Below are positions 3,141 through 7,576 of a stretch of DNA of 20,634 nt, piece after piece. This stretch comes from a virus. A program made the position numbers and the translations under genes. A model generated the notes under the pieces. It was not told where the DNA came from. It worked only from the letters and a program-made list of their open reading frames with translations, and did not search any database. Each line of letters starts with the position of its first letter. Position 1 is the first letter of the stretch. The DNA lies in IMG/VR virus record IMGVR_UViG_3300032048_000024, positions 1-20,634 of that record. One strand, given 5' to 3'.

Positions 3141-4025
3141 ATGAGTTTCGCAGACTTAAAGGCTAAGGCTAATGACATGAGCGCATTAGTTGGTGCGGCC
3201 CAAAGCACCACAGAAAAGAAAACATTCGGCGACGACCGTATGTGGAAACCCACGGTAGACAAAGCAGGTAACGGTTATGCCGTTATTCGTTTCTTACCGA
3301 CTGTCGAAGGTGATGATTTGCCTTGGGCAAAATACTGGGACCATTTCTTTCAGGGACCAACTGGTCAATGGTATGTTGAGAAATCACTTACTACAATTCA
3401 GAAGGATGACCCTGTTTCAGAAATGAATTCAAAACTTTGGAATACAGGTATTGAAGCAGACAAAGATACTGCACGTAGACGTAAGCGTAGGCTTCACTAT
3501 GTGTCAAATATCTATGTTGTTTCTGACCCTGAAAGTCCAGAAAACAATGGTAAAACATTCTTATATACTTATGGTGCTAAAATCTTTGAGAAAATCATGG
3601 ATAGTATGCAACCTAAGTATGAGGATGAACAACCAATCAATCCATTTGATCTATGGGGTGGTGCTAACTTCAAAATGAAGATTGCTCAAGTAGCGGGATT
3701 CCGCAACTATGACCGGTCTGAGTTTGGTACACCAGAGGCTTTGAATGCTGATGATAATATATTAGAAGCTATTTTCAATAAGCAGTATTCTCTTAAGGAG
3801 TTTACTGACCCTTCAACATTTAAATCTTATAGTGAGCTTAATCTTAAGTTGACTAGAGTGTTAGGTGAGGAAGTAAAGACGCCGTCTGAAATTGACTACG
3901 TTGATGAAGATATATCTAATGAAACACGTCAAGACCCAGTTGCGGTTGCTGCAGATCCAGTTCAACGAGCTGAAGCTGAAGATGACACAATGAGTTATTT
4001 CGCTAAATTAGCGGCTGAAGCTTAA
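3141..4025 (+). CDS. 32: gp32 single-stranded DNA-binding protein
   Basis: A 294-residue protein (T4 gp32 has 301). It coats ssDNA at phage forks and organises gp59/gp41 and recombination proteins. The OB-fold core is evident from MWKPTVDKAGNGYAVIRFLP (34-53), FFQGPTGQWYVEKS (69-82), VSNIYVVSDPESPENNGKTF (121-140) and the GGANFKMKIAQVAGF region, which lines up with T4 EGANFVLKVKQVSGF. A basic patch, ARRRKRRLHY (111-120), precedes the second half of the core. The protein has no cysteine at all. The T4 zinc ligands C77, C87 and C90 fall where this protein has KDDPVSEMNSK, so it is a zinc-free version, a pattern I associate with marine relatives. The acidic tail (EDDTMSYF) is weaker than in T4. 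Confidence 0.95.
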   Translation: MSFADLKAKANDMSALVGAAQSTTEKKTFGDDRMWKPTVDKAGNGYAVIRFLPTVEGDDLPWAKYWDHFFQGPTGQWYVEKSLTTIQKDDPVSEMNSKLWNTGIEADKDTARRRKRRLHYVSNIYVVSDPESPENNGKTFLYTYGAKIFEKIMDSMQPKYEDEQPINPFDLWGGANFKMKIAQVAGFRNYDRSEFGTPEALNADDNILEAIFNKQYSLKEFTDPSTFKSYSELNLKLTRVLGEEVKTPSEIDYVDEDISNETRQDPVAVAADPVQRAEAEDDTMSYFAKLAAEA

Positions 4026-4030
4026 TCACT

Positions 4031-4054
4031 AAGCCCTCTTCGGAGGGCTTTTTT
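4031..4054 (+). terminator. Rho-independent terminator after gene 32 with a UUCG loop
   Basis: AAGCCCTC (4031-4038) pairs perfectly with GAGGGCTT (4043-4050) around a TTCG tetraloop, followed by a T run to 4054. It ends the + strand 33-59-32 transcript. On the opposite strand no U-run follows the hairpin, so it should act mainly in one direction, although it sits exactly between two converging genes. Confidence 0.92.
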
Positions 4055-5942
4055 ATTCACGAATGTGCATGTAAGTGTCACCATAACCACCTGCTTCATA
4101 ATTAACAACAGTTGTATTAATATGTGTTTGACCGGATTCAGCCTGAATTGCTCTATTTAATGCTTTCTGATCTTGAGTTCTTATATAAGCTGCTTGCATT
4201 TCTTCACTCTCTCTAAACTTTTTGACTTGCGAACCAACCCAAGCATTTTTACCAAATTGTGCATAATGAGTTGTAGAGCCAGGTTTACTAGGGTCTAAAC
4301 CCCAACGAACACCAGTATCAGGATTTATTAAGTTGTTTGATAATTTAGTAATCTCTCTTAATCCTGCAGCATAATGATGGGTAAGTGCACTTTCACTTAA
4401 ACCTCCAACAGCACCTGTTTCACCAATCTCAATTCCAAATATCTTTCTAGCCCAGTCAGGTATCATACCTTTAACCCAATTTGCTATTCTACCTGGTATA
4501 GCAGTAATCCATTCCCATACGCCAGTACGGTAGTCTGCACTTGTAAATAAACCTCGTATAAATTCTATGGCACCAGATATTAAATGGAAAGGGGCGGCAA
4601 CCAATTTACGAATTAAATCCATGAAACTAAATTCTTGTATTGCTCTAAGAACATCACCTGTTGCACTTTGACCTTTAATAATAGTTCCATCCTTATTTGA
4701 TTTTAAACCGAAGGCTTTCTTAAGAAGCCATACCGCTACATTTTTAACTACATCTGCTAAACCACCAACTATATAACCTAAAAGACCACCAGTAGCTTCA
4801 CCTATTATAGTCATTAAAGTACTTCCTTCTTTTTCTGATTCTTTTTTACCAGATTTAAATCCTTCAAAAAGACCAAATAGTAATGTTACTGGCCATAAAA
4901 TTCTTCCTAGAAATTTTACAATACCAAGATTCTTAAAGACATCAAAGGTTGATTTCATACCTCTCCAGGTAGCTTTACCCATCCATTTAGATATACCAGC
5001 ACTAAAATTAGTAATAGGTTTAAATATTTTACCTATTCTTCGTGTTAATAAACCAGCATATCCAGCAGACATCCATGCTGCTCTAACAGGTAATGACCCA
5101 CGAGGTCCAGGTCTATTACCAAGTGGCTTACCATCAACACCTAAACCAATAGAATTAAATGCTTTCAGTCTTATATTAGACATTCTAGTCTTTATACCTT
5201 CAACAAGACCAGCCCATCCAAATGCTTTCCATTGACCATCTACTTTTCTATATATTGGTTTACCATTTTTATCATAGCCAGCCCATTTCATAACACTACC
5301 TACAAATTTATTCCAACCAGCAACAACAGCGGGTATTACACCCTTACTCCATACTTTAATGCCCGCTAAAACTTGAACAACTTCCTCATGCCATTTACGT
5401 ATTGCTAAATAAGCACCGCCTATAAGTAATACCGTAGCTATTAGAATTGGAATTTTAAATTTTTTCCAAGCATCTCTTAATATATCTAAGCCTTCTATTT
5501 TCTTTTCAGCTCTGAGTTTCAAACCTTCAGCCCAGCCCATGAAACTAAATTTTCTTTTTCCAGTTTCTAAATCTCTTTCACGTTGGTCTCTTCTATCTTG
5601 TAGTCGCCAAATTCTATCTCTATTAGCTTGCTTATTAGTTAGATTCATCGTGGCAGTTTCAGCACTCAACATCATTTTTTGAACTTTACCTTTAGTAGTA
5701 TCTTTATGCAATGCATCAGTAAAGGTTTTTGCTTGACCAGCTAAATAACGACGTTTAAAGTCAGTAGCATCATCAATAATTAAACTCTGATTCTCTTCAT
5801 TAACTTTCTGAGATGACTGTATCATCTCCTGACGCTTAGCTTCTTCAGACTCTCTCAGTCTATCGCGCGTACTAAGTTGATTCTGCTTTCGCAGAAGTTG
5901 GACTACTTGTTGCAGTAATGTTTCTTGAGTTTTTTTAGCCAT
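4053..5942 (-). CDS. Tail tape measure protein (gp29-like position)
   Basis: A 629-residue protein encoded straight after the frameshifting tail chaperone, the standard place for a tape measure. The first 130 residues are charged and helical (coiled-coil-like, with LLQQVVQLLRKQNQL and runs of Glu/Arg/Lys). Residues 164-182 form a strong membrane span (IPILIATVLLIGGAYLAI), and further hydrophobic, Gly-rich segments lie at about 343-360 and 376-396, as in tape measures that insert into the host inner membrane. The length is near that of T4 gp29 (590). At about 0.15 nm per residue it predicts a tail of roughly 94 nm. The start ATG shares one base with the stop of the chaperone extension. I see no lytic or peptidase motif. 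Sequence identity to gp29 is not evident, so the call rests on context, length and composition. Confidence 0.7.
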   Translation of the reverse strand: MAKKTQETLLQQVVQLLRKQNQLSTRDRLRESEEAKRQEMIQSSQKVNEENQSLIIDDATDFKRRYLAGQAKTFTDALHKDTTKGKVQKMMLSAETATMNLTNKQANRDRIWRLQDRRDQRERDLETGKRKFSFMGWAEGLKLRAEKKIEGLDILRDAWKKFKIPILIATVLLIGGAYLAIRKWHEEVVQVLAGIKVWSKGVIPAVVAGWNKFVGSVMKWAGYDKNGKPIYRKVDGQWKAFGWAGLVEGIKTRMSNIRLKAFNSIGLGVDGKPLGNRPGPRGSLPVRAAWMSAGYAGLLTRRIGKIFKPITNFSAGISKWMGKATWRGMKSTFDVFKNLGIVKFLGRILWPVTLLFGLFEGFKSGKKESEKEGSTLMTIIGEATGGLLGYIVGGLADVVKNVAVWLLKKAFGLKSNKDGTIIKGQSATGDVLRAIQEFSFMDLIRKLVAAPFHLISGAIEFIRGLFTSADYRTGVWEWITAIPGRIANWVKGMIPDWARKIFGIEIGETGAVGGLSESALTHHYAAGLREITKLSNNLINPDTGVRWGLDPSKPGSTTHYAQFGKNAWVGSQVKKFRESEEMQAAYIRTQDQKALNRAIQAESGQTHINTTVVNYEAGGYGDTYMHIRE

Positions 5943-6855
5943 TACATTTTCATTCCTTTGTTAGCTTTTTCATTTCTTTTATTTTCTTCCTCTATGTGTT
6001 CCTGTAGAAGAGCTGTATATATTTCCCTCTCCCATGGCATCATATTATTAATATCTTCTAAACTAAAATCATGATGAATCATCATCGAGAAATTTACTTT
6101 TAAATGATTACTTATACTATCATGAGAAAGGGCTATATAAAAAAATCAGATAACCCTTTTAACTCCCTATCATGTTCATGCCCACATTTTGCACACTTAT
6201 ATTTTAAATCATGAGTTAATGCAGGTGTACTATCCATAAATTCCAGTACTTTAGCAAACTGATCTGTATTTAAACTTTCAACAAATTCTACAAGTTCATT
6301 CTGAGTAGCATCTTTAGCAGCATGAATATCTTCTCCACTATAAATTGTTTCAATACTCTTAGCAACTGTATTAATAACAGTATCAGTTTGGGTTTTGCGC
6401 ATTGACGCAGGCAATCTATCACTTGCCTTAAGCCATCTCAAATCCATACTAATATCATCATTAAGTTCAATGTGTTTACTATTTTTTATTTCTTCTTCAC
6501 TTTCTAAATTAGAAACAAAAATTTCATCTAAATCAATTTTTACATCAGTTTGTCCATCACATTCTTCAACTTCACAATCTACAAGTAATTTAATACCTTC
6601 ACCTACAGACTTACTTCGTAGGGTTATAAATATATACTCAATATCAAATGTTGTTAAATCATTTATTTTAAGTGGTGATTCTATACATGCTTTAATAATA
6701 TCTACTACTGATTTTTCAATCAGTATTTCATCATTACTTTCTAAAGCAATTAATAAAATCTTCTCTTCTTTGACCACGTATGGTCTGTATGTTACAGTTT
6801 GGCCGGTTGATGGCACAATCATATCATACTTTGGGGTTGCAATTATTGGCAACAT
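5942..6855 (-). CDS. Predicted -1 frameshift fusion: tail-assembly chaperone, long form
   Basis: Reading 6855 to 6139 in the zero frame, slipping back one base on the T7 run, and continuing from 6139 to the TAA at 5944-5942 gives a protein of about 304 residues. The 65-residue extension begins YIALSHDSISNHLKVNFSMM and continues through SLEDINNMMPWEREIYTALL and a charged helix to NKGMKM. The -1 frame has no stop from the slip site to its end, although the zero frame stops two codons after the slip. The extension ends one base into the tape measure start. This is the layout of lambda G/GT-type chaperones, where a minority long form contacts the tape measure. Without a frameshift, the extension could be read only as a 47-residue ORF from the ATG at 6085, which has no ribosome site. 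Not experimentally shown here. Confidence 0.7.
6127..6159 (-). other. Hairpin enclosing the frameshift site
   Basis: On the - strand, AAAGGGTTAT (6159-6150) can pair with ATAGCCCTTT (6136-6127): ten pairs including one G-U, with a 13-base loop that contains the whole T7 slip run and spans the zero-frame stop on its 3' arm. It could affect the efficiency of slipping. Unlike the usual design, the structure surrounds the slip site and is not placed downstream of it. Confidence 0.45.
6133..6855 (-). CDS. 26: gp26/gp51-type baseplate-hub or tail-assembly chaperone, short form
   Basis: A 240-residue protein. Its opening (PKYDMIVPSTGQTVTYRPYVVKEEKILL), central FDIEYIFITLRSKSVGE and C-terminal LNTDQFAKVLEFMDSTP segments match the family annotated as T4 baseplate hub assembly protein gp26 in cyanophages. 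T4 gp26 and gp51 are needed for hub assembly but are not virion components, consistent with a chaperone. Cys94/Cys99 (CEVEEC) and Cys221/Cys224 (CAKCGHEHD) could together form a zinc site. The ribosome site GGAGAGAG precedes the ATG. The last codons, TTT TTT ATA TAG, contain the slip sequence for the long form. The tape measure gene follows. Naming it gp26 instead of gp51 is uncertain. Confidence 0.75.
   Translation of the reverse strand: MLPIIATPKYDMIVPSTGQTVTYRPYVVKEEKILLIALESNDEILIEKSVVDIIKACIESPLKINDLTTFDIEYIFITLRSKSVGEGIKLLVDCEVEECDGQTDVKIDLDEIFVSNLESEEEIKNSKHIELNDDISMDLRWLKASDRLPASMRKTQTDTVINTVAKSIETIYSGEDIHAAKDATQNELVEFVESLNTDQFAKVLEFMDSTPALTHDLKYKCAKCGHEHDRELKGLSDFFI
6139..6145 (-). 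promoter_or_regulatory. Programmed -1 ribosomal frameshift site TTTTTTT
   Basis: Zero-frame codons are GAT TTT TTT ATA TAG. The T7 run satisfies the X XXY YYZ rule, so both P- and A-site tRNAs re-pair perfectly after a one-base slip. The -1 frame then reads TAT ATA GCC and stays open for 65 codons up to the tape measure gene. Confidence 0.7.
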
Positions 6856-6880: not shown

Positions 6881-7576
6881 TTAAACTAATCTCTTAAACG
6901 TATCTAACGTGTCCTTTCCTATCGATAACATGTGTCCTACCACATCTCCGAATCCTTCTATTAATCCAACACTTCTAAAATTATCATATTCCCAAGTAAT
7001 AGTTAATTCCATTAAATCTTCTGACCCAGAACTTAATTCAATTGCACCAACTTGAATAGGATATGCATTTTCTAATTTGATTGTATAGCCTGGAATAACA
7101 TTATTACCTTGAGATAATTGTTGAATAGTTATATCACTAGTATACTCATCTTTATAAAATGCTTTATAGTGTCTACGTGATGTATCGATAATCATCTCTT
7201 GCCACATATCAAAATATTTTTTTATGTAATAGTCATTCGTTAATAGAAATGTCATAGATACTTCATCAGTCATTGCTGAATATGGTTTCTTTGCTAAGTG
7301 ATGATTATGTGAAGCTTCAGTTGTTGTTATACGTTTGCCTGGAAGTGAAACAGACCGACATAACAAAAACAAATCTCTTGGGTCTTGTATAAAATCTCCA
7401 AGATTTATACCATCACCTGATATTAAATTACTTAATAAAGTAGCTGGATTAAATTTTAATAAACTATTCATACCTTTTGAAGGATGAGATACATATACAG
7501 CATATCTATTACCACGTGCTATACCACCACGACGATTAATCGTTGACTTAATTGAATCTATACTAGTTGGTAACAT
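6881..7576 (-). CDS. 54: gp54-like tail-tube initiator (tail-tube fold)
   Basis: A 231-residue protein with the organisation of myovirus tube-fold proteins: an N-terminal NRYAVYVSHPSKG strand, CRSVSLPGKRITTTEASHNH (the 'primarily beta, SLPG' turn common to gp19/gp54 types), the long beta strands of DEVSMTFLLTNDYYIKKYFD, and a closing AYPIQVGAIELSSGS plus DLMELTITWEYDNF sheet. T4 gp54 has 320 residues and polymerises on gp48 to start the tube. A compact gp54 fits this gene, and gp48 is the first gene of the divergent operon. A tail-tube paralogue is the alternative. The start ATG shares one base with the previous stop, and the chaperone gene follows. Confidence 0.6.
   Translation of the reverse strand: MLPTSIDSIKSTINRRGGIARGNRYAVYVSHPSKGMNSLLKFNPATLLSNLISGDGINLGDFIQDPRDLFLLCRSVSLPGKRITTTEASHNHHLAKKPYSAMTDEVSMTFLLTNDYYIKKYFDMWQEMIIDTSRRHYKAFYKDEYTSDITIQQLSQGNNVIPGYTIKLENAYPIQVGAIELSSGSEDLMELTITWEYDNFRSVGLIEGFGDVVGHMLSIGKDTLDTFKRLV

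Follow-up and report, generated by a model that had tools for sequence, protein, structure and literature searches.

A Conserved Slip Site Points to a gp26/gp51 Tail Assembly Chaperone Pair Made by −1 Frameshifting in T4-Like Phages

Proposed Chaperone Locus

The window, i.e., the whole 20,634-nucleotide stretch of a marine T4-like phage analyzed here (IMG/VR record IMGVR_UViG_3300032048_000024), contains a locus that, judged from its sequence, very probably encodes a pair of tail assembly chaperones, both made from one start codon by a programmed −1 frameshift. Most ribosomes would stop at the TAG of a gp26-type gene and release a short form of 240 aa (TAC-N). A minority would slip back by one base, with tRNA-Phe on T_TTT_TTT, and continue into a 304-aa fusion (TAC-NC), which would carry a helical gp51-type domain.

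The gp26-type gene is located at 6133..6855 on the minus strand. Its product matches PF12322 (T4_baseplate, 9e-54) as well as phrog_150 (5.5e-59), and the AlphaFold model of the short form has a pLDDT of 90. The best solved matches to the N-terminal domain of this model are 3fgx (Z 7.9), 2ob9 (Z 7.3) and 5ir0 (Z 5.3), the next one being unrelated (Z 2.7). Entry 2ob9 is the tail assembly chaperone gp13 of HK97, matched with moderate strength over 83 residues (rmsd 3.9, Foldseek probability 0.82). The PDB title of 3fgx calls that protein uncharacterised; we take it to be a phage TAC relative. A tail assembly chaperone fold of the short protein is thus supported by the predicted structure, at the moderate strength of the match. 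In the second domain, four cysteines (C94, C99, C221 and C224) are invariant or nearly so and lie at two predicted beta hairpins: they probably make up a zinc ribbon that immediately precedes the slip site. A comparable CPKC...CC pattern is visible in T4 gp51.

The Predicted Slip Site

Read on the minus strand, the gp26-type gene ends in the 0 frame with TCT GAT TTT TTT ATA TAG, the last five codons being those given in an earlier note on this DNA, which was made from the letters alone. The slippery heptamer T_TTT_TTT occupies positions 6139..6145 (minus strand; 0-frame GAT TTT TTT) and is assigned on the basis of six conserved Ts. Two sets of relatives were compared. The first comprises IMG/VR homologues of the short protein, 35–69% identical to it, plus a partial one at 99%. 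The second was collected independently, using the extension alone as the query, and holds 80 loci. In the first set, all 78 gp26 homologues that span the site have xxT TTT TT(T/C) near the 0-frame stop and then, in the −1 frame, an extension similar in length and motif. In the second, each of the 80 loci has a 0-frame gp26 ORF, and its extension opens with a T_TTT_TTN heptamer.

All 126 distinct relatives, the most remote of them at about 35% protein identity, have the six Ts unchanged in this position, a count given without a p-value since the loci share kinship and are not independent events. The seventh base is free (T in 63, C in 49, A in 13 and G in one), and the codon preceding the Ts encodes Asp, Asn, Ser or Ala depending on the locus, always ending in T. 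All 126 loci hence carry, near the end of the short ORF, a conserved heptamer of the form X_XXY_YYZ, namely T_TTT_TT(T/C/A/G); the slip site and the −1 extension are kept together in the same place, the comparison that the earlier note had proposed as a check.

Codon usage at the site was compared within 48 non-redundant loci. The first slip Phe codon is TTT in 48 of 48 and the second is TTT in 35 and TTC in 13, and, as an internal control, the other conserved Phe columns of the gp26-type gene have TTC in 27 of 186 cases. In 14 of the distinct loci, where the heptamer ends in A (13 loci) or G (one locus), the second slip codon is TTA or TTG and encodes Leu instead of Phe, which argues that the bases are kept and not the amino acid. 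Such a pattern is what an X_XXY_YYZ slippery site demands, unlike a constraint on the amino acids.

Possible Stimulatory Elements

A Shine-Dalgarno-like AAGGG is found at 6154..6158 (minus strand), ending 8 nt before the heptamer, and a second such element, AGGGAG, at 6163-6168 on the same strand. Among the 126 loci, 106 have an SD-like 4-mer that ends 6–12 nt (mostly 8–11) upstream of the heptamer. The predicted pairing with the anti-SD beats that of synonymous shuffles by 1.3–1.5 kcal/mol near the site, with an excess of about zero in control windows at least six codons further upstream. The slip is therefore probably stimulated by pairing of the 16S rRNA with the AAGGG element, as far as such predictions go. 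This signal could partly reflect conserved K-G-L residues, although the synonymous shuffles control for that.

No conserved stem-loop or pseudoknot was found in the 60 nt that follow the slip site: the mean z of the folds is −0.8 over 48 loci. In seven of these, among them S-PM2, S-CAM1 and Milchi, the z falls below −2. As the folds are not unusually stable across the set, downstream RNA structure was rejected as a conserved stimulator.

The run of seven Ts in the window could also suggest that the RNA polymerase slips, giving mixed mRNAs that are each read conventionally. This is highly improbable, for half of the distinct loci (63/126) have six Ts only, followed by C, A or G, and a run of six is short for efficient polymerase slippage. 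Moreover, the pattern of conservation fits X_XXY_YYZ, and the SD-like element stands at the distance known from ribosomal −1 sites. Slippage of the ribosome accordingly remains the preferred reading of the site.

The −1 Extension

The −1 frame extension (TAC-C, gp51-type) runs over 5942..6145 on the minus strand and is delimited by its match to phrog_634, its pN/pS ratios and its collinearity with T4 gp51. It counts 67 codons including the FF of the slip site, or 65 after these two Phe codons, plus a TAA stop, and reads TTT TTT TAT ATA GCC ... AAA ATG TAA, i.e., FFYIALSHDSISNHLKVNFSMMIHHDFSLEDINNMMPWEREIYTALLQEHIEEENKRNEKANKGMKM. Together with the part encoded upstream, it would give the 304 residues of the long form. 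In TAATG (5944-5940), one base belongs both to this stop and to the ATG of the gene that follows. The earlier note had described 65 open codons reaching to within one base of that ATG: the frame is indeed open, with an overlap of one base in place of the gap.

At 2e-23, the extension matches phrog_634, to which the T4 gp51 'baseplate hub assembly catalyst' belongs; a weaker match is to the end of the phrog_150 profile. Only chance-level matches were returned by a Pfam scan, and the extension was not found among plasmid records. AlphaFold predicts, with confidence (pLDDT 86), three helices, for which a fold search with the model gave no match. A profile search of solved-structure sequences returned HIV gp41 helices (E 0.016 or worse); these weak matches were rejected as helix similarity. 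In the alignment, N18, L29, M35, E39 and R40 are invariant, and L6, H8, F19, P37, W38 and Y43 nearly so.

The extension had earlier been judged to look like real protein, and the substitution pattern bears this out. In a pairwise comparison of extensions (374 pairs, uncorrected for multiple hits), the mean pN/pS is 0.40 in the −1 frame, compared to 1.07 for the 0 frame and 1.68 for the +1 frame. Each of the other two frames contains on average 6–7 stops per extension, the −1 frame none. By these measures, the extension is under purifying selection in the −1 frame only, the opposite of the neutral pattern that had been named as counting against the frameshift. An assembly or sequencing indel, or a fused gene in decay, was considered as another origin of the junction, homopolymer runs being error-prone. 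Such an origin is scarcely credible given that the same frame relation recurs across 126 distinct loci and across isolate genomes of several groups, under selection that is frame-specific. The junction is thus best read as a probable −1 slip site.

A Predicted Fusion Collinear with T4 gp51

Profile comparison with hhalign relates the two predicted products to two T4 proteins. T4-type gp51, represented by a profile of four diverse sequences, aligns with its columns 7–252 to residues 17–292 of the fusion, right through the junction (E 9e-24), and T4-type gp26 aligns only as far as residue 240, the end of the short form (E 7e-23), both E-values being those of a single comparison. In terms of homology, the short form is gp26 and the predicted long form is gp51; hence, T4 carries as two genes what the window phage would make from one. 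The proposal that the protein filed under 'gp26' is the G-type chaperone of this group gains support from this alignment across the junction, as well as from the N-terminal fold resembling HK97 gp13. T4 gene 26 reads AAA GAG TTC TTT GAG, so that the site is lost there, and the same loss is seen in three further phages examined whose long gp51 has its own gene. No separate gene for the long form, as in T4, was found in the window record, a 20.6-kb fragment with a single gp26-type match; the long form would need the frameshift.

The extension could instead be a small gene of its own (gp51), translated from its own start by internal initiation or by termination and reinitiation near the gp26 stop. 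A separate gp51 is annotated in many records, including those of S-PM2, phiM12, KVP40, Mosig and P-SSM5, and a Met at residues 21–22 of the window's extension might serve as its start. However, conservation begins right at the slip site, ahead of any start codon: the first possible ATG, GTG or TTG of the −1 frame in the window is at residue 21, after the conserved L6, H8, N18 and F19. In 42 of the 80 loci of the second set, no such codon precedes extension codon 15. Furthermore, 24 of the 48 non-redundant loci of the first set have a −1-frame stop directly before the slip site, so that the extension cannot be a separate gene starting upstream. A separate gene would also leave the six invariant Ts without explanation, and in T4 gp51 itself the gp26-type part belongs to the same chain. 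A gene of its own is therefore very unlikely for the extension. A separate gene, a missing slip site and a lack of selection were each looked for among the relatives, and the outcomes all favor a programmed −1 frameshift.

Neighboring Genes

The T4-like setting of the window is confirmed by family matches to gp32, gp2, gp4, gp19, gp48, gp53, gp5, gp25, gp6, gp8, gp59 and the late coactivator (gp33). Directly upstream of the gp26-type gene lies a gp19-like tail tube gene (6881..7576, minus strand; phrog_45 at 4.7e-33, Phage_TTP_2 at 2e-9). Downstream, a large gene of 629 aa (4053..5942, minus strand) starts on the extension stop. It is presumed, from its position and size only, to encode the tape measure; a profile comparison detected no similarity to T4 gp29. 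With a tail tube gene on one side and a gene of tape-measure position and size on the other, the locus is most naturally read after the lambda G/GT model. By analogy, coating of the tape measure would fall to the short form and recruitment of tail tube subunits to the long form, with neither expected in the finished tail.

In most relatives, the extension is likewise followed by a large gene, whose start falls at −5 to +13 nt relative to the first base of the extension stop, most often overlapping that stop. Through the overlap, the next gene could be coupled to the long form in translation. As termination at this stop would be confined to ribosomes that had shifted frame, such coupling, if true, could tie the synthesis of the tape measure to the amount of the long chaperone.

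Two further genes of the window lie on the plus strand. The first (530-1282) encodes a protein of 250 aa whose start resembles a signal peptide and whose composition is beta-rich and porin-like, and for which PHROGs and Pfam gave no match; beside T4-like replication genes, this is unusual cargo. The second (157-477) encodes a small protein with the metallopeptidase-like motif CHEMVHVLQ, which matches the metallo-protease family phrog_87 at E 0.006 and DUF6782 at E 0.001.

Distribution and Annotation

Homologues of gp26 were found in 811 public phage records (tblastn, E 1e-3). In nine of nine records with matches to both gp26 and the extension, the tblastn coordinates show the −1 relation. The same arrangement is present in isolated phages of several groups: Pelagibacter phage Mosig, the cyanophages S-CAM1, S-PM2, S-N03 and P-SSM5, the Vibrio phages KVP40 and VH7D, Aeromonas phage Aeh1, Sinorhizobium phage phiM12, Pseudomonas phage Milchi and Variovorax phage V45v66, as well as Rhizobium phage RHph_I34, where the heptamer is T_TTT_TTG.

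None of the 12 slip-site-bearing isolate records that were examined annotates a joined gene: eight have a separate downstream gp51-type ORF, three have nothing there and one is without any annotation. The statement of the earlier note that normal gene calling misses the T-type part therefore holds for some records, but many call it as a separate 'gp51 baseplate hub assembly catalyst'. In Aeh1, an unannotated −1 extension follows GAT TTT TTC at about 3205-3387 (FFRLTLVNDSVYDLFNVNYEMHKEGWTIEELETTTPFERAIYRTLF...). Sullivan et al. (2010, PMC3037559) described cyanophage gp51 as only ~20% of the usual length, its first ~200 residues being absent, and reported that Aeh1 has no gp51. A frameshift would account for both puzzles: the missing 200 residues are those of gp26, and Aeh1 has the extension in unannotated form. 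It would hence explain why the gp51 of ocean phages looked mostly missing, and annotating the fusion in place of a separate 'gp51' would correct the genome annotation of many abundant ocean phages.

In six loci from Ackermannviridae and Vibrio phage D506, a gp51-like extension also lies in the −1 frame and overlaps the gp26 stop. The gp26 ends of these six loci contain no T_TTT_TTN heptamer and read ATT TTC ATT TAA, GTT TTT CGC TAA or CTT TTC AAG TAA, some with TAATG. A different slip, or stop-start reinitiation, may operate in these phages as a third route to a long chaperone.

With moderate confidence, we regard frameshifting from the gp26 gene, helped by an internal SD as in dnaX, as the widespread and probably ancestral route to gp51 in T4-related phages, covering the Kyanoviridae, Schizotequatrovirus, Cinqassovirus, Emdodecavirus, Pootjesviridae and uncultured marine lineages. 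T4 would then be the exception, its slip replaced by a duplicated gene, and the 'truncated' gp51 of ocean phages would never have been a gene of its own.

Comparison with Known Systems

Chaperones of the lambda G/GT type, made by a programmed −1 frameshift, were reportedly described by Levin in 1993 and by Xu, Hendrix and Duda in 2004. The window locus resembles lambda G/GT in its short and frameshifted long protein, in the order of tail tube, chaperone and presumed tape measure genes, and in a slip near the end of the short gene. It differs in that its phage is T4-like, its slip site is T_TTT_TTN with a probable SD stimulator, and its short protein, much the longer of the two, has four conserved Cys in a second domain. 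The −1 site of E. coli dnaX has an SD-like stimulator ~10 nt upstream of the heptamer, plus a downstream stem-loop. The SD-like spacing is similar at the window-type loci, whereas no conserved counterpart of the dnaX stem-loop was found there.

Frameshifted tail assembly chaperones of the lambda type have been reviewed with T4 named as the exception (PMC5009743). Short and long forms homologous to those of the window do exist in T4, as gp26 and gp51, but they come from two separate, diverged and divergently oriented genes, gene 26 being without a slip site. The literature on the roles of T4 gp26 and gp51 in hub assembly is contradictory (PMC3004832), and the frameshift gives a specific and testable account of both proteins. 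The Vandenendeviridae, with Pseudomonas phage Adele (PMC12846349), likewise have, immediately ahead of the tape measure, a −1 frameshift at a poly-T that was deduced from conservation, although with a GTTTTT motif and in different phage families.

At least some of these findings have probably been published already. According to papers that cite it, the work of Vladimirov, Gautam and Davidson (2022) identified gp26 and gp51 as the tail assembly chaperones of T4-like phages, under a title that argues for a mechanism other than frameshifting. In the PRFect publication, 'some' T4-like phages are said to rely instead on a short gene together with a longer fused one. The phage Adele paper (PMC12846349) credits Vladimirov 2022 with poly-T slip signals in T4-like TAC-N genes. 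Judged from these citing sources, both the kind of system and the identity of gp26 and gp51 as T4-like chaperones are already known; what is added here is the free seventh base, the frame-specific selection, the SD element, the collinearity with gp51 and the case of Aeh1.
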